Below are positions 2,648-21,463 of a stretch of 27,916 bases of DNA, piece by piece. The stretch lies in the IMG/VR virus record IMGVR_UViG_3300008954_000218, positions 1-27,916 of that record; one strand, given 5' to 3'. Positions within the stretch are counted from its first letter, which is position 1. Each line of letters opens with the position of its first letter. Source of the DNA: a virus. A model generated the notes under the pieces. The model saw only the letters and a list, made by a program, of their open reading frames with translations. It was not told where the DNA came from and did no database searches. The translations under genes were made by a program, and so were the position numbers.

Positions 2648-3015
2648 AACAAGTCGCCATGCTACTCCCAGCCCTGAAAGCCCTCGCAGAACAAGTCGCC
2701 ATGCTACTCCCAGCCCTGAAAGCCCTCGCGGGTGATGAGGTGGTGGACGTAAGCATCCAGGGCCTGACCGTGCAAGTCACCCCTGAATACTGGATGGCCC
2801 ACTTTGAGACCATGGCTGGGGTTGATGTTGAGGTAACGCGCTTTAAGTACCAAGGCGATGACTATGAGGCCCGCAGTGTTGTGGTGGGTGATGAGCAGGT
2901 AACCATCAAGGCTTACATCCCTGTTGAGGCTGAACCCGACATAGAAGAACAGTGGGACGCCGCAAGGAAGGAAAGCCAAGACATTCTGGACGGCATGTTC
3001 AGGGCGGGTGATTGA
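2635..3015 (+). CDS. Hypothetical early protein with a recent 14-residue tandem duplication
   Basis: A 126-aa protein. Residues 4-17 and 18-31 are the same 14-residue helix (AEQVAMLLPALKAL), encoded by identical 42-bp DNA. A VxVSIQGLTVQVTPEYW beta segment follows, then alternating strands (MAGVDVEVTRFKYQGDDY) and an acidic helical C-terminus. I do not recognise a family. It shares a start module with the upstream gene. Perfect identity of the two DNA copies points to a very recent duplication. Confidence 0.65.
   Translation: MNQAEQVAMLLPALKALAEQVAMLLPALKALAGDEVVDVSIQGLTVQVTPEYWMAHFETMAGVDVEVTRFKYQGDDYEARSVVVGDEQVTIKAYIPVEAEPDIEEQWDAARKESQDILDGMFRAGD
2644..2727 (+). repeat. Perfect 42-bp in-frame tandem duplication
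   Basis: Copies at 2644-2685 and 2686-2727 are identical. The unit length is a multiple of three, so the frame is kept and a 14-residue helix is doubled. It could be replication slippage, or an assembly artefact if reads were short. Confidence 0.9.
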
Positions 3016-3016
3016 T

Positions 3017-3334
3017 ATGACACCCGAAGAGATTCGCAAACACGGGGCGGTACATGCCAACTTGCGCGGGGCCAACTTGGGCGGGGCCGACTTGCGCGGG
3101 GCCGACTTGCGCTGGGCCAAAGGTTTTCACCTGCTTCCCGTCCAGGACATGCGCGGCTACAGCTTTGCTCATGCGGTTGAGTGTGAGGGTGGCTGGCGCG
3201 TCCGCGCTAGTTGTCGGGACTTCAGTATTGAAGAGGCCAGGGCGCATTGGGGTGAGGATTACAAGGGCGACAGGGAGCAAGGTGATATGTACCTGTACGC
3301 AATCGACTGGCTGGAGAAGAAAATCAATGACTAA
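3017..3334 (+). CDS. Short pentapeptide-repeat-containing protein
   Basis: Start ATG 3017 (MTPEEIRKHG) follows GGGTG; GTG 3008 is an alternative. Residues about 13-34 carry the A(N/D)LxG pentapeptide pattern (HANLRGANLGGADLRGADL), about four to five repeats encoded by near-identical 15-bp units. Known pentapeptide proteins fold as a right-handed beta helix; this run is only about one coil long. The rest (GYSFAHAVECEGGWRVRASC, then RDFSIEEARAHWG) is unfamiliar and may be the functional domain. It sits in the early operon and overlaps the next gene by 8 bp. Function unknown. Confidence 0.65.
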   Translation: MTPEEIRKHGAVHANLRGANLGGADLRGADLRWAKGFHLLPVQDMRGYSFAHAVECEGGWRVRASCRDFSIEEARAHWGEDYKGDREQGDMYLYAIDWLEKKIND

Positions 3335-4989: not shown

Positions 4990-5441
4990 CCTGCGCCAAG
5001 CAGATTGCTCCCGAGTGCTCGTCGGAGCACTACGCCAATGACCGGGCCTGTAAGGAGTGCAGAAAGCAGATGGTCAGGGCAAACCGCGCAGCGAACCGGG
5101 AATACTACCGGGCCTATGACCGTGGAAGGAACATGCGCCCCGATAGGGTCGAGGCAAGGCGGGAGTACATACAGACGGACGCGGGGAAGGCGTCCAAGCA
5201 GAAGGCCATTGCCAAGTACAATACCAAGAACCCCAAGAAGTACGCAGCCAAAAACGCAGTCAACAACGCTGTCCGTGATGGCAAGCTGACCAAGCCAGAT
5301 ACCTGCTCAGAATGCGGCGCGGGAGGGCGCATACATGGCCACCATGATGACTACTCAAAGCCCTTGGAGGTGCGCTGGCTGTGCCCAGCCTGTCACAAGG
5401 CCCACCACAACACACAGGGGAAGGGTGATGCGACCCTTTGA
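4986..5441 (+). CDS. Zinc-binding HNH-like protein
   Basis: A 151-aa protein starting at GTG 4986, overlapping the previous gene by 4 bp. An N-terminal cysteine cluster (C-x6-C, then CKEC) precedes a long basic helical stretch rich in Arg, Lys and Ala. The C-terminal domain has CSECG, then IHGHHDDYSKPLEVRWLC and PACHKAHH: two CxxC knuckles around an H-x-HHDD core, as in zinc-stabilised HNH-type nucleases. It may be a nuclease or only a zinc-ribbon DNA-binding protein. It ends with the NTQGKGD tail shared with three downstream genes. Confidence 0.7.
   Translation: MTCAKQIAPECSSEHYANDRACKECRKQMVRANRAANREYYRAYDRGRNMRPDRVEARREYIQTDAGKASKQKAIAKYNTKNPKKYAAKNAVNNAVRDGKLTKPDTCSECGAGGRIHGHHDDYSKPLEVRWLCPACHKAHHNTQGKGDATL
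5408..5430 (+). repeat. Gene-junction repeat, copy R1
   Basis: CAACACACAGGGGAAGGGTG then ATG. It encodes the NTQGKGD tail of the upstream gene and supplies the SD (GGGGAAGGG) and ATG of the next gene. Copies lie at 5676-5698, 5935-5956 and, degenerate, 6568-6590. Confidence 0.85.
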
Positions 5442-5703
5442 ACACGAGCCAGTAGAGTTAGTGGGTTGGGTGCAACACGGAACCATTGCAGATGGTGGGT
5501 ATAAGTATGGCTCTTGGAGCAGACAAAAGGGGCGGGTGTACGTTGTCATCAGTCAGGGAGAGGTTAGCCGTGATTATTGGGTGCAGTGCTGTAACGGCGG
5601 GACAGTGCTTCACGGGCCACGAAAAACCCTTAAAGGCGCGGAAAGGTTGGGGAATAAAGTGTTTGCAGAGGCACTCAACACACAGGGGAAGGGTGATGGA
5701 TAA
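5428..5703 (+). CDS. Hypothetical small protein between junction repeats
   Basis: A 91-aa protein starting at ATG 5428 inside repeat R1. The body is rich in Tyr, Trp and Gly (VELVGWVQHGTIADGGYKYG), then KGRVYVVISQGEVSRDYWVQ and CCNGGTVLHG, which reads like a small beta-sheet domain. The C-terminal helix ends in NTQGKGDG from repeat R2. I recognise no family. It is bounded on both sides by the same junction repeat, so it may be an exchangeable cassette. Confidence 0.6.
   Translation: MRPFEHEPVELVGWVQHGTIADGGYKYGSWSRQKGRVYVVISQGEVSRDYWVQCCNGGTVLHGPRKTLKGAERLGNKVFAEALNTQGKGDG
5676..5698 (+). repeat. Gene-junction repeat, copy R2
   Basis: Identical to R1 over all 23 bases (CAACACACAGGGGAAGGGTG plus ATG). 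It encodes NTQGKGD at the end of the upstream gene and the SD and ATG of the next. CT rather than CA precedes it. Confidence 0.85.
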
Positions 5704-5956
5704 CGACAAACAAATGATGATTGTTGACAGCGTGACTCATTCTTTCCGTATGGCCTGCGCTGAAATTGTCCAAGAACACACCAGCTATCATGCCACACTG
5801 CGCCCCCGGCTGTTTATTGACGGAAACCAGTGGTGCGCCCTTTATGGCGAAAACTTGCAAGATGGGGTGGCAGGGTTTGGGGATACCCCCTCCAAGGCGT
5901 TGCGAGACTTCAATTCTGCTATGTATAGGTCACTCAACACACAGGGGGAAGGGTGA
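5696..5956 (+). CDS. Hypothetical small protein between junction repeats
   Basis: An 86-aa protein starting at ATG 5696 within repeat R2. The N-terminus is helical (MIVDSVTHSFRMACAEIVQE). It continues with LRPRLFIDGNQWCALYGENL and QDGVAGFGDTPSKALRDFNS, a beta-hairpin plus helix. The pattern (a surface Trp-Cys strand, then a GxGxTPxxALxxF helix) resembles small phage proteins of unknown function that show the phrase GDTPxxAL near the end. The C-terminal NTQGEG comes from repeat R3. Function unknown. Confidence 0.6.
   Translation: MDNDKQMMIVDSVTHSFRMACAEIVQEHTSYHATLRPRLFIDGNQWCALYGENLQDGVAGFGDTPSKALRDFNSAMYRSLNTQGEG
5935..5956 (+). repeat. Gene-junction repeat, copy R3
   Basis: CAACACACAGGGGGAAGGGT then GA: the same as R1 and R2 but with one extra G, which turns the end of the upstream gene into NTQGEG-stop. 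The next gene then starts at GTG 5953 instead of ATG. Confidence 0.8.
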
Positions 5957-6603
5957 AAGTCTTAAACCTATACGCAGGATTAGGCGGAAACCGCAGGCTA
6001 TGGCCTGATGATGTCGAGGTGACTGCCGTTGAATATCGGGAAGATATTGCCGAGTTCTATGCCTACGAGTACATAGACGACCAGGTGATGGTTGGGGATG
6101 CACACCAGTATCTTCTCGAGAACTTCAGGGACTTCGACTTTATATGGGCATCAACACCTTGCCCAACGCACAGCCGCGCCAGGTTCTGGTCACATCAACA
6201 GCGTGACCCGGTATACCCTGACCTGAAGCTGTACGAAGAGATTCTTTTCCTGCGGCACACATTCAAGGGCTTGTGGGTAGTGGAGAACGTAAAGCCGTAC
6301 TATGAACCCCTGATAGCCCCCACAGCATCACTGGGCAGGCACCTGTTCTGGTCTAACTTCCACATTGAGCCTTACCAGGCTACAGATGCGGATATACACA
6401 CCGGCAAGCGGGACGAATGGCAAGACACACACGGGATAGATATTAGCGGCTGGACGTTCCAGGATAGGACGGACAAGTTGCTAAGAAACTGTGTTCACCC
6501 GGAACTGGGTTTGCACATATTGGAATGCGCGAGGGGCGTACCTGGTACCGTTGACCAGATGAGCCTGCTCAACACACAGGATAAAGGGGACTCGCCAGCC
6601 TGA
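5953..6603 (+). CDS. C5-cytosine DNA methyltransferase, compact
   Basis: A 216-aa protein from GTG 5953. It has motif I (LNLYAGLGG, residues 4-12) for AdoMet, the PC motif (STPCPTHSRAR, nucleophile Cys70), ENV (residues 111-113), and a motif X-like LLRNCVHPELGLHILECA. Usual C5 methyltransferases exceed 300 residues, so the target-recognition region (about residues 120-175) is minimal. The PC motif reads PCP instead of the more common PCQ. Alternatively it could be a divergent cytosine-modifying enzyme of this fold. No restriction endonuclease partner is nearby, so it is probably an orphan enzyme masking phage DNA. It ends with the degenerate NTQDKGD tail. Confidence 0.85.
   Translation: MKVLNLYAGLGGNRRLWPDDVEVTAVEYREDIAEFYAYEYIDDQVMVGDAHQYLLENFRDFDFIWASTPCPTHSRARFWSHQQRDPVYPDLKLYEEILFLRHTFKGLWVVENVKPYYEPLIAPTASLGRHLFWSNFHIEPYQATDADIHTGKRDEWQDTHGIDISGWTFQDRTDKLLRNCVHPELGLHILECARGVPGTVDQMSLLNTQDKGDSPA
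6568..6590 (+). repeat. Gene-junction repeat, degenerate copy R4
   Basis: CTCAACACACAGGATAAAGG then GGA. The first 13 bases match R2 and R3 including flank; the SD half is altered. It encodes the NTQDKGD tail of the methyltransferase, but no gene starts here; a promoter follows instead. Confidence 0.7.
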
Positions 6604-7843: not shown

Positions 7844-7883
7844 ATCCGAAGCCTGGGCACAATGGGGGCAAAATGAGCATTGA
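7836..7883 (+). CDS. Leader ORF 1 (WAQWG peptide), possible gene remnant
   Basis: GTG 7836 opens a 15-residue reading frame, VTESEAWAQWGQNEH, whose stop lies four codons into the first DPPY methyltransferase (ATG 7873). Almost the same peptide occurs before the second methyltransferase and again at 9186, where it continues to 52 codons. It is either a coupling leader peptide or the repeated 5' end of a small gene carried along in the duplication. Confidence 0.45.
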   Translation: MTESEAWAQWGQNEH

Positions 7884-8496
7884 ATTGCTGCATATGGATT
7901 GCATGGAATACATGGTGGGCTGTGAGGACAACTCTTTTGATTTGGCGATAGTTGACCCGCCTTATGGGATTGGGGTCAATGTATCTATGGGCCGCAGGAA
8001 GGGCCAGGCCGCTAGCGGTTACAAGAAATTCCACGGTGAAGATAGGGAGCCGCCCAAACGAGAGTATTTTGACCAGCTTATGCGGGTCAGTAAGGGGCAG
8101 GTTATATGGGGGGCCAATCATTTTATTGACCTCATCCCAATCCCCAGCCCCTGCTGGCTTATGTGGGACAAGGGCTTTTCCGATGAGGTTACTTTTGCCC
8201 AGTTTGAGTTGGCGTGGACTAGCTTTAAAACCACAGCAAAGAAATACGACAAGCCACCCAATGAGAGGCATCGAATTCACCCCACCCAAAAGCCGCAGGC
8301 TCTTTATCGGTGGATTCTCGAAAACTACTCAGCCCCAGGACAGCGCATCCTAGACACCCATCTTGGCAGTGGTTCTAGCGCCATAGCCGCGCACTATTTT
8401 GGCTGTGACTTTGTAGGCACCGAACTGGACGAGGATTACTATAACGCTGCGGTTGAGCGATTCGCCAATGAGACAAAACAAGTGGCCATGTTTTGA
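7873..8496 (+). CDS. Beta-class DNA amino-methyltransferase (DPPY), first paralog
   Basis: A 207-aa enzyme with DPPY (residues 28-31) near the N-terminus and the AdoMet motif LDTHLGSGS (160-168) near the C-terminus, the beta-class order, as well as HPTQKP (136-141). Such enzymes make N6-methyladenine or N4-methylcytosine. The first about 35 residues and the last about 50 are nearly the same as in the second paralog. The middle (about 36-135), where specificity lies, is very different. No restriction partner is visible, so an orphan protective role is likely. The start lies within the repeated leader DNA and overlaps the leader peptide stop. Confidence 0.88.
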   Translation: MSIELLHMDCMEYMVGCEDNSFDLAIVDPPYGIGVNVSMGRRKGQAASGYKKFHGEDREPPKREYFDQLMRVSKGQVIWGANHFIDLIPIPSPCWLMWDKGFSDEVTFAQFELAWTSFKTTAKKYDKPPNERHRIHPTQKPQALYRWILENYSAPGQRILDTHLGSGSSAIAAHYFGCDFVGTELDEDYYNAAVERFANETKQVAMF

Positions 8497-8543
8497 CTGA
8501 AGAGGCCGAAACCTGGGCACAATGGGGGAAAAATGAGTATTGA
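8493..8543 (+). CDS. Leader ORF 2 (WAQWG peptide), possible gene remnant
   Basis: TTG 8493 opens LTEEAETWAQWGKNEY, 16 residues, overlapping the stop of the first methyltransferase; its stop lies four codons into the second (ATG 8533). It matches leader 1 at 10 of the positions before the stop and is near-identical in DNA from CTGGGCACAATGGGG on. The arrangement of stop, start and overlap is the same as in copy 1. Confidence 0.45.
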   Translation: MTEEAETWAQWGKNEY

Positions 8544-9189
8544 ATTGCTACATATGGATTGCATGGAGTACATGGCGGGCTGTGAGGATAACGCCTTTGA
8601 TTTGGCGATTGTTGACCCGCCTTATGGGATTGGTATGGATGGCGGGAGCATAGGGAAGGGGAAGGCTCACGCCAAGAAGGGGTGGGATAGAACGCCCCCA
8701 GCAAAGGAGTATTTTGCAGAGGTGGAGCGGGTTTCAAAAAATCGAATTATATGGGGGGCAAACCATTTCACCTATGCCCTAGACCCTGTAAGGGGCTGGA
8801 TTTACTGGGATAAGATGCAGGACGGATTTGGCAAGACGTTCTCTACTGGAGAGCTTGCGTGGACTAGCTTTGACAGACCAATGTCTCAAATTCGCTATCA
8901 ATGGCAAGGAAACTACTGCGGGTTTGAGGGGGCAACAACCCTGAAAACAAAGACTGGCGAAACCAGCATTCACCCCACCCAAAAGCCAATTAAGCTCTAT
9001 GACTGGCTATTAAAAACCTATGCCGAACCAGGCCAGCGCATCCTAGACACCCATTTGGGCTCAGGCTCCAGCGCTATAGCCGCCCATTACTTCGGCTGTG
9101 ACTTTGTAGGCACCGAGATAGACCCTGATTACTTCAAGGCAGCACAAGAGCGGTTTAACCAAGAAACTAAACAGGTGGCAATGTTTTGA
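8533..9189 (+). CDS. Beta-class DNA amino-methyltransferase (DPPY), second paralog
   Basis: A 218-aa enzyme with DPPYGIG (28-34), HPTQKP (147-152) and LDTHLGSGS (171-179), in beta-class order. The ends are almost the same as in the gene directly upstream (MSIELLHMDCMEYM at the start, ETKQVAMF at the end). The centre (about 35-145, GGSIGKGKAHAKKGWDRTPP and on) is unrelated or highly diverged. It looks like a tandem duplicate with an exchanged target-recognition segment, so it probably methylates another sequence. The exact target is not readable from the sequence. Confidence 0.88.
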   Translation: MSIELLHMDCMEYMAGCEDNAFDLAIVDPPYGIGMDGGSIGKGKAHAKKGWDRTPPAKEYFAEVERVSKNRIIWGANHFTYALDPVRGWIYWDKMQDGFGKTFSTGELAWTSFDRPMSQIRYQWQGNYCGFEGATTLKTKTGETSIHPTQKPIKLYDWLLKTYAEPGQRILDTHLGSGSSAIAAHYFGCDFVGTEIDPDYFKAAQERFNQETKQVAMF

Positions 9190-19622: not shown

Positions 19623-19973
19623 ATGACCGATGGAAACAATAGCAAGTCTAGTCACATCCTTGTCCATAAGCGGGGTGTTTTGGTTGTGTGCGTCCCTGTT
19701 CTGGTTGCTATCGTTAGCAGCGTGGGCGGTGTTGTGTCTGACCTCATCCAAGCAAGCCGTGGGGCCAGCGCAGACCAAATCGCGGTATTGGCTTCACGGG
19801 TCGAGAGCCTCGGATATAGGGCAGACAGTTTCCAGGATGAGATACGCGACTGCCACGCTCGGGTTGACATCCTTGACCGCCGATACACTATCCTCAGAGG
19901 AGACTTTGAGGCGCAGAAGCGAGGACGCGCCGAGGGAGACGGTGCGGGTTACCATACCGGGCGCGGCGGCTGA
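19623..19973 (+). CDS. Single-TM coiled-coil protein, i-spanin-like (Rz-type) candidate
   Basis: A 116-aa protein. One transmembrane helix at residues about 18-41 (GVLVVCVPVLVAIVSSVGG) is followed by a heptad-like coiled coil (IAVLASRVESLGYRADSFQD, EIRDCHARVDILDRRYTILR) and a basic Gly/Arg-rich end. An N-terminal TM plus a periplasmic coiled coil is the architecture of Rz-type inner-membrane spanins. It precedes the endolysin gene. AAGGA lies nine bases before its ATG. A second frame (19630-19992) overlaps almost completely and has its own SD and start. By codon pattern (many GNN codons) this frame looks more protein-coding. Confidence 0.6.
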   Translation: MTDGNNSKSSHILVHKRGVLVVCVPVLVAIVSSVGGVVSDLIQASRGASADQIAVLASRVESLGYRADSFQDEIRDCHARVDILDRRYTILRGDFEAQKRGRAEGDGAGYHTGRGG

Positions 19974-19992
19974 ACAGGTGATATTTAAATGA
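19630..19992 (+). CDS. Overlapping out-of-frame membrane protein (lysis candidate)
   Basis: A 120-aa frame that overlaps the 19623-19973 gene in another phase. ATG 19630 has GAGGT nine bases upstream. Residues about 6-40 are strongly hydrophobic (LVTSLSISGVFWLCASLFWL, LSLAAWAVLCL), one long or two short TM helices; the rest is polar. It ends in ATGA with the endolysin start, a translational coupling not seen for the other frame. No lipobox or proline-rich tail is present, so it is not an obvious Rz1. It could be a small holin or antiholin. It may also be a chance overlap. Confidence 0.4.
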   Translation: METIASLVTSLSISGVFWLCASLFWLLSLAAWAVLCLTSSKQAVGPAQTKSRYWLHGSRASDIGQTVSRMRYATATLGLTSLTADTLSSEETLRRRSEDAPRETVRVTIPGAAAEQVIFK

Positions 19993-20342
19993 AGTGGCCG
20001 ACACCCTACTTCACCCGCGCTGAATTCGCCTGCAAGTGCGGTTGTGGGTTCGACACGGTTGACTATGGCCTTGTGGCTGCACTGGACAAGATACGGGCGC
20101 ACTTTGGCGTTCCTGTGACCATAACCAGCGGGTGCCGTTGTGAGTCCCACAATCGTGCTGTAGGCGGTTCTGAGGCATCCCAGCACCGGAGGGGCAGGGC
20201 GGCAGATTTCACAGTTCAGGGCATCCCCCCGTCCAAAGTTGCGGAATATGTTGAGGGGCTTGGACTTGGGGGCATTGGCATCTACAAGACATGGATACAC
20301 ATAGACACACGACACGGAAAAGCGAGGTGGGATAAGCGATGA
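19989..20342 (+). CDS. Endolysin, M15-type D,D/L,D-carboxypeptidase
   Basis: A 117-aa protein of the Peptidase_M15 group that cuts the peptide part of peptidoglycan at lysis. It has an N-terminal FACKCGCG, then VTITSGCRCESHNRAVGGSE with SQHRRGRAADFTV (first His and Asp zinc ligands), then WIHIDTR with the last ligand pair HxD. Length and motif order are typical of the short phage M15 enzymes. No signal peptide is present, so it needs the holin for export. It overlaps the membrane ORF before it and the next gene after it by 4 bp each (ATGA). Confidence 0.9.
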   Translation: MKWPTPYFTRAEFACKCGCGFDTVDYGLVAALDKIRAHFGVPVTITSGCRCESHNRAVGGSEASQHRRGRAADFTVQGIPPSKVAEYVEGLGLGGIGIYKTWIHIDTRHGKARWDKR

Positions 20343-20755
20343 ACAGACTGGAAGGAAGTGTAACGCTGTTTGGCGGGCTGGTACTGGTTGGCCTGATGAT
20401 GACGCTCAGTATGTGTGTGAGTGCGTCCACTATTGATGTTCGGTGGCCTGATGACTACGCAGGCGACCAGGCTTTACCAGACGGCGAGTACAACCATTTC
20501 CAGCGTTACAGCTACTACACGGTACCGTATGCGGAATTGTTGTACGGCGGCCTGTGGGTGCCCCCTACGCGCCCTGTTCCGGTGTTCCCTCCTGCTGAGC
20601 CTGAGTGCGATATTGCGGTGAGTCCTTCGTATGGGTGCGTGTATGAGGTGGAAACGAACGAGGTTCCATTGCCCCCTGCGGCGTGGCTGTTCCTGTCGGC
20701 ACTGGCTGGGCTGGGGTGGGTGAAGCGAAGAGGCAGTGATGAGCTGGCTAGGTAA
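20339..20755 (+). CDS. Secreted protein with a VPLPA/PEP-CTERM-type sorting tail
   Basis: A 138-aa protein starting at ATG 20339 in overlap with the endolysin stop. Residues 1-31 look like a signal peptide: MNRLEGS, then VTLFGGLVLVGLMMTLSMCV, with an SAS site. The mature part is acidic, rich in Pro and Tyr, with Cys90 and Cys100. The end has VPLPPA (109-114), a hydrophobic helix (AAWLFLSALAGLGWV) and KRRGSDELAR. This three-part tail matches the PEP-CTERM/VPLPA-CTERM signal that exosortases process in Gram-negative exopolysaccharide producers. It sits between endolysin and holin genes. The tail class is clear by pattern; the role is unknown. A phage carrying one is unexpected. Confidence 0.8.
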   Translation: MNRLEGSVTLFGGLVLVGLMMTLSMCVSASTIDVRWPDDYAGDQALPDGEYNHFQRYSYYTVPYAELLYGGLWVPPTRPVPVFPPAEPECDIAVSPSYGCVYEVETNEVPLPPAAWLFLSALAGLGWVKRRGSDELAR

Positions 20756-21176
20756 GCTGTTTGGCACTGATAACGCGGTCGAACAGGTAATCTCCACGGG
20801 GGAGCGCCTGTTGGACGATGCGTTCTACACTGACGCTGAGAAGGCGGAGGACACGGCGCGTGACCGGAGTGAAGTGCGAACAATGGTTGTCGAGTGGATG
20901 GCAAACACACAAGGCCAGAATCTTTCTCGACGGGTCATTGCCCTGTCAGTTACGGGGGTCTGGTTACTCATGTACATGCTGTCCACTGTTTTGGGACTCG
21001 GCGCTGTCTGGGTTGACGCGTCACTCAACGCCCGGTTACTTGAATCTATCGCCATCCTTGATGAGCGAAATGACGCAATGACGGGCGCGGTGATGTTGAT
21101 ACTCGGTTTCTACTTCGCGGCCCCCAAGATAGGCCAGATTGCTGACGCGGCTATGGCGAGGTTTAGCAAGCAATGA
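20739..21176 (+). CDS. Holin with three transmembrane helices (GTA_holin_3TM-like)
   Basis: I chose ATG 20739 (MSWLGKLFG); an upstream GTG is in frame. The 145-aa protein has an N-terminal amphipathic part (AVEQVISTGERLLDDAFYTD, EKAEDTARD), then TM helices VIALSVTGVWLLMYMLSTVL (with GLGAVWV) and AMTGAVMLILGFYFAAPKIG, and a short C-terminus. Layout and phrases (WLxKLFG, AFYTxxEK) fit the GTA_holin_3TM group of small phage holins that let endolysin reach the peptidoglycan. It is placed just after the endolysin region. It overlaps the PEP-CTERM-like gene by 17 bp. Confidence 0.78.
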   Translation: MSWLGKLFGTDNAVEQVISTGERLLDDAFYTDAEKAEDTARDRSEVRTMVVEWMANTQGQNLSRRVIALSVTGVWLLMYMLSTVLGLGAVWVDASLNARLLESIAILDERNDAMTGAVMLILGFYFAAPKIGQIADAAMARFSKQ

Positions 21177-21463
21177 TTAACAAGGCAGGCAGGGAAACGG
21201 TAGCGTGGGCATTGGGTGCCATAGCCACCCTGATTGCCATATGGGGATATGTTGACGCTCAGCACGAGCCTAGCGGCACGGTGGCGGCTGCGCTGGAGGT
21301 GATGCTGGGCGTGGTAGAGGACGACCGCGCGGCTGACCTGTACTGGCTGAACGAGAAAGAGAAAAATGAGGGCTTGACCCCGCATGAGGTGGGCCGGAAG
21401 GGTTCCATTGAGGCGGGGTTGAGGCGTATTGAAAGAAAACAAAGGGCGCTTGATGATGAGTGA
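21173..21463 (+). CDS. Single-pass membrane protein, spanin-like candidate (96 aa)
   Basis: Starts at ATG 21173 in overlap with the holin stop. One N-terminal TM helix (VAWALGAIATLIAIWGYVDA, residues about 10-29) is followed by a periplasmic helical segment (AALEVMLGVVEDDRAADLYW) and a charged end (KGSIEAGLRRIERKQRALDD). Type II topology in a lysis region makes it a possible inner-membrane spanin or lysis regulator. I recognise no family. It overlaps the next gene by a few bases. Confidence 0.6.
   Translation: MINKAGRETVAWALGAIATLIAIWGYVDAQHEPSGTVAAALEVMLGVVEDDRAADLYWLNEKEKNEGLTPHEVGRKGSIEAGLRRIERKQRALDDE

Follow-up and report, generated by a model that had tools for sequence, protein, structure and literature searches.

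The exosortase substrates known so far are biofilm-linked proteins of cells, and their biochemistry is poorly defined. Among them, PEP-CTERM proteins have been proposed to be read by exosortase (Haft et al. 2006, PMC1569441), and their classical genes mostly form operons of one gene and share an upstream element, an arrangement that is typical and not obligatory (PMC1569441). In the part of the literature that was covered, no paper tying PEP-CTERM proteins or exosortase to phage-encoded substrates was found. On the side of phage lysis, no spanin has been identified in about 13% of the analysed phages, and the outer-membrane step of Gram-negative lysis is often unaccounted for (PMC6139136). The gene described here lies on the plus strand at 20339-20755 of a viral DNA stretch of 27,916 nucleotides from IMG/VR, hereafter the window, and ORF detection, codon use and a match to the VPLPA-CTERM model TIGR03370 predict that it encodes a secreted protein of 138 amino acids with a VPLPA-CTERM tail. 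The reading followed below, to which we assign about an even chance, is that of a phage-encoded, host-processed VPLPA-CTERM/exosortase substrate made together with the lysis genes.

The ORF is intact and represents a real gene, as indicated by the ORF list and by codon use, with a codon log-odds of 0.094 in its own frame against -0.38 and -0.46 in the other frames of the same strand and about -0.21 on the reverse strand. It is preceded by an endolysin of the M15 family (19989-20342, plus strand), recognised by its matches to phrog_894 and PF08291, whose TGA stop shares the string ATGA (20339-20342) with the ATG of the 138-aa ORF. On the other side, a holin-like membrane protein (phrog_9646; 20736-21176, plus strand) begins inside the ORF, at GTG 20736 or, more probably, at ATG 20739, ahead of the ORF stop at 20753-20755. 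The earlier note had placed the gene in a lysis cluster, overlapping the endolysin stop and the holin start, and these coordinates bear it out. A ribosome-site-like string, GAGGTGG, can be read from the sequence at 20324-20330 (plus strand), 8 nt 5' of the ATG; together with the overlaps on both sides, it indicates that the protein is probably translated with the endolysin and the holin-like protein. A sequence scan found no sigma-70 promoter or terminator setting the gene apart from its neighbours. The single-gene organisation of PEP-CTERM genes is not seen here, as the gene overlaps others on both sides, and its place inside a lysis operon, unlike that of classical PEP-CTERM genes, weakens the exosortase-substrate reading.

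The other genes of the region are small. The phrog_9646 protein, which is called holin-like by position and topology and has no curated name, shows 46-50% identity to proteins that, in phages of Shewanella and Vibrio, are encoded directly 3' of lysis enzymes. It is followed by a protein of 96 aa that has a single membrane segment near its N-terminus and an i-spanin-like topology (21173-21463, plus strand), and for which a lipobox scan found no strict-lipobox protein as an o-spanin partner; indeed, the same scan detected a strict lipobox in no ORF of the lysis region of the window. On the 5' side of the endolysin, a 116-aa protein with a membrane segment and a helical part (19623-19973, plus strand) has a weak coding signal, and its ORF overlaps another one in a different frame (19630-19992).

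Farther from the lysis genes, a 23-nt repeat is found at 5408-5430, 5676-5698, 5935-5957 and 6570-6592 of the window, with two identical and two partial copies; it lies at successive gene ends, accompanied by the start of the following gene and a ribosome-site-like string, forming a repeated gene-junction module. Two adjacent and related methyltransferase-like genes (7873-8496 and 8533-9189) have the common start MSIELLHMDCMEYM and similar ends, and a small protein with pentapeptide-like repeats (GANLGGADLRGADLRWA) is encoded at 3008-3334.

The 138-aa protein starts with MNRLEGS and a hydrophobic stretch, followed by VSA|ST, so that hydropathy, with the cleavage site chosen by inspection, predicts a signal peptide at residues 1-29 (20339-20425, plus strand). 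In a hydropathy scan, strongly hydrophobic 19-mers were present only at residues 3-34, and no membrane segment was seen between signal and tail. The intervening residues 30-108 (20426-20662, plus strand) constitute the predicted periplasmic or exported part, which is rich in Pro and Tyr and contains Cys 90 and Cys 100. A single-sequence structure model has low confidence (mean pLDDT 62), with two weak strands at 31-63 and disorder at 70-105, and a fold search with this low-confidence model gave no match at E < 0.001. The tail occupies residues 109-132 (20663-20734, plus strand; VPLPPAAWLFLSALAGLGWVKRRG), at the C-terminus of the protein, and consists of the VPLPA-like motif VPLPP, a short hydrophobic helix and the basic cluster KRRG, after which six further residues, SDELAR, are found. 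A three-part tail behind a signal-peptide-like N-terminus, as the earlier note described, is therefore confirmed by TIGR03370 and hydropathy.

The best NCBIfam match of the protein is TIGR03370 (E 8.8e-5), covering model positions 1-24 of 25. With the curated cut-off at 25.35 bits, the two search modes straddle it, the protein scan yielding 22.4 bits and a six-frame search of the window record 25.5 bits (E 6.1e-7); this, and the six residues following KRRG, weaken the exosortase-substrate reading. The match is nevertheless the only strong one to any family and falls exactly at the C-terminus, which favours that reading and agrees with the VPLPA-CTERM identity initially assigned to the tail. 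The second-best match, to the flocculation-associated PepA (NF033554), concerns the tail only and reaches 16.3 bits, far below its cut-off of 80. A rule describing the tail architecture was satisfied by none of 95,400 shuffled ORFs. The tail thus exceeds chance, yet it is borderline for the curated family, and the protein is a candidate, unconfirmed member of the VPLPA-CTERM group. It has in common with TIGR03370 and PEP-CTERM (TIGR02595) substrates the signal-like N-terminus, the lack of an internal membrane segment, the VPLP motif, the short helix and the C-terminal basic cluster; it differs in being phage-borne, in its location within a lysis operon and in a score that lies at the cut-off.

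The strongest rival to this assignment, one absent from the earlier note, is an atypical unimolecular spanin, with the N-terminus lipidated at Cys 26 and held in the outer membrane and the C-terminal helix in the inner membrane, which we regard as rather improbable; the collapse of the periplasmic part, and the resulting fusion of the membranes as the last step of lysis, would be just as improbable. The comparison is with gp11 of phage T1, which is also the product of a lysis-cassette gene, has the same layout of signal, periplasmic domain and C-terminal membrane helix and is of similar length (133 versus 138 aa). Residues 23-26 of the window protein, within the signal peptide, read LSMC, a lipobox-like string that resembles the T1 lipobox LSGC (PMC6139136); however, it is off consensus, since the Met at -1 falls outside [LVI][ASTVI][GAS]C. 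A periplasmic Cys occurs in none of 58 catalogued u-spanins (PMC6139136), gp11 included, against two in the window protein, and the latter has no sequence similarity to gp11. For the beta-rich periplasmic domain expected of a u-spanin, the low-confidence structure model offers two strands at 31-63, with the remainder disordered. The C-terminal helix, although present in a lysis-cassette gene, is far less hydrophobic than the long helix of gp11: its hydropathy (KD15 1.73, KD19 1.32) resembles that of other PEP/VPLPA tails, as opposed to 3.14 and 2.97 for the T1 helix, and this difference speaks for the exosortase-substrate reading. Used as a control, gp11 matched neither TIGR03370 nor TIGR02595, even at E 10. 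A spanin would fill a place in a lysis region where no ORF has a strict lipobox and where the sister phage L252 encodes, in the corresponding region, an Rz-like protein with an embedded Rz1-like lipoprotein; it would leave the VPLP motif unexplained.

The gene has a very narrow distribution. In IMG/VR, its only other copy is on one near-identical contig, and tblastn with the protein as query gave no match in 50,697 phage records. Residues 30-108 had no match in 369 genomes, in a search run without a positive control, and the short tail queries found none among phages, where low-complexity filtering may mask matches. The neighbouring tail protein, used as a query, led to seven further sister phages; nine records of sister or syntenic phages were searched, and all of them lack a VPLPA tail. 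The check for homologs in other phages that the earlier note proposed thus yielded the near-identical contig alone; the lack of an independent homolog and of the tail in these nine counts against an exosortase substrate. In sister phages the corresponding slot is taken by other genes, such as those for a 67-aa lipoprotein-like protein in L248 and a 98-aa secreted protein in L251, so that the 138-aa gene is an accessory of the window phage.

Such a pattern, in which unrelated small secreted proteins occupy one slot within the group and the gene in question is an orphan missing from the sisters, would also suit an ordinary secreted accessory protein anchored by its C-terminus, whose VPLPA-like tail arose by convergence or belongs to a captured host gene and undergoes no exosortase step. 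The borderline TIGR03370 score is in line with this explanation, and anchored phage proteins can weakly match CTERM models: T1 gp11 touches Firmicu-CTERM at E 7e-4 (19.5 bits, cut-off 50), so that scores near this value prove little by themselves. Nonetheless, we consider it unlikely, given the match to 24 model positions at the exact C-terminus, the shuffling result and the recurrence of far better tails in other phages.

These tails emerged from two surveys of IMG/VR. A degenerate DNA pattern for VPLP[AP]AxWL retrieved 50 stretches, and a real VPLPA-type tail ends the proteins of 13 contigs besides the near-identical one, corresponding to about eight unrelated proteins. A canonical PEP-CTERM DNA pattern retrieved 82 contigs (L067-L148); in all 80 tabulated contigs, and likewise in the remaining two, the motif stands at the end of an ORF whose terminus is basic. 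The 75 longer PEP-CTERM proteins group into 14 families, and a crude criterion assigns a signal peptide to 58 of these proteins; the largest family, with 46 members, includes phages of about 41 kb in which the gene is located between the portal and the major head protein. Several tails exceed curated cut-offs: VPLPA scores are 32.2 bits in L011 and 27.6 bits in L025, TIGR02595 gives 26 in L119 (cut-off 16), and L106 and L142 are likewise above. L009 scores 32.8 bits for VPLPA and 63.8 for the FxDxF family (cut-off 50). The PEP-CTERM gene of L142 is flanked by a head-and-packaging protein and by neck and sheath genes, that of L078 by the portal and the major head protein, and such placement among structural genes indicates that they are phage-borne, more than host flanks. 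In L051, the VPLPA gene has as neighbours a holin-like gene, the gene of a small lipoprotein and that of an M15 endolysin with 41% identity to the endolysin of the window. No match to the L119 PEP protein was found in phages and 385 genomes.

Other records added further cases. The L003 and L009 phage contigs have tandem PEP/VPLPA-CTERM-type genes, with the second L009 tail being VPIPGALPLFVSGLGGLWWLSRQRKKKQQ and two TIGR03370 matches in the L003 record. L011, L014, L019 and L022 encode a phage protein of 94-102 aa that has a strong VPLPA tail (32.2 bits) and no signal peptide. A PEP-CTERM ORF at 198-953 on the minus strand of L165 (TIGR02595 18.4, cut-off 16) lies on a contig of a Rhodospirillales MAG that also carries a related terminase; the genome has no exosortase match. 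The VPLPA gene of L196 was set aside as a phage gene, since its neighbours look chromosomal.

The phage-borne genes (L067-L148, and L009, L011, L025, L051 and L142) are similar to that of the window in being phage-encoded, mostly with a signal peptide, and in the C-terminal position of the PEP/VPLPA tail. They differ in having unrelated exported domains and, where the context was read, in residing mostly in capsid or tail modules; among these phage genes with PEP- or VPLPA-type tails, that of the window is the one seen to overlap endolysin and holin. Independent cases, on 82 PEP-CTERM and 13 VPLPA contigs, thus lend real support to the proposal that exosortase-type substrates are made by phages, and the existence of bona fide substrates in other phages, some above curated cut-offs, favours the same reading for the window gene. 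The presence of PEP/VPLPA-CTERM proteins in many unrelated phages suggests, at the level of sequence, that phages can borrow the exosortase machinery of the host, and this recurrence of candidate substrates outweighs the window gene in importance.

As for the enzyme, no exosortase gene is present in the window, and a motif scan limited to two short patterns confirmed no viral exosortase in 2.9 million viral contigs. Any sorting enzyme must therefore be that of the host, and the absence of a viral one is what would be expected if the host supplies it. On the host side, 274 Gammaproteobacteria (in the GTDB sense) were sampled; an exosortase match was found in 84 and a TIGR03370 match in 55. Exosortase is present in 46 of the 55 genomes with a VPLPA tail versus 38 of the 219 without it (odds ratio 24, p 3e-20, uncorrected for kinship of the genomes), which makes the tail a fair indication that a genome has an exosortase; that it predicts the enzyme in Gammaproteobacteria is a further point for the exosortase-substrate reading. 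Relatives of the window TerL, with at most 53% identity, occur in beta-, alpha-, gamma- and deltaproteobacterial and other genomes. An exosortase above cut-off is encoded by only 16 of 45 host genomes of these relatives, which detracts from the reading; with an identity of 53% at most, the TerL relatives spread too widely to point to a host, and this route was dropped.

From these data we infer a host exosortase, a cleavage, a location and a role for the 138-aa protein. Late in infection, it would be translated along with the endolysin and the holin, and its predicted signal peptide would carry it across the inner membrane by Sec. The tail may then park it in the inner membrane, through the short helix and with KRR inside, where the VPLP motif, facing the periplasm, could be read by a host exosortase, which would cut the tail and hand over the Pro/Tyr-rich domain to the exopolysaccharide or the outer envelope. 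As the gene is coupled to lysis genes, the product would most likely be of use at the surface of the cell near the time of lysis, for instance by making the envelope and the matrix looser so that virions can leave. The interpretation in the earlier note is supported in part, and the roles that it named, altering exopolysaccharide, blocking superinfection or aiding outer-membrane disruption at lysis, are putative. A superinfection-exclusion or surface-masking protein, coating the cell by the same exosortase route instead of aiding lysis, appears very improbable: an exported, surface-bound product of the phage would suit such a role, and the PEP-CTERM genes of other phages are found in late structural and not in lysis modules, but direct evidence is absent and exclusion would be of little use, since late expression follows from the overlap with the lysis genes.

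For phages as a class, we put forward, tentatively and with somewhat less confidence than the reading of the window gene itself, that unrelated members infecting hosts with an exosortase may exploit this enzyme through late PEP/VPLPA-CTERM proteins of their own that modify the outer envelope of the host, a strategy that in the window phage would be joined to the lysis programme. If so, phage-borne substrates would be host-range markers for bacteria with an exosortase, and they would suggest that display at the surface through the exosortase route matters during infection. Substrates encoded by phages without the enzyme would represent small natural probes of the exosortase pathway, and one coupled to endolysin and holin would give Gram-negative lysis an unexpected element.
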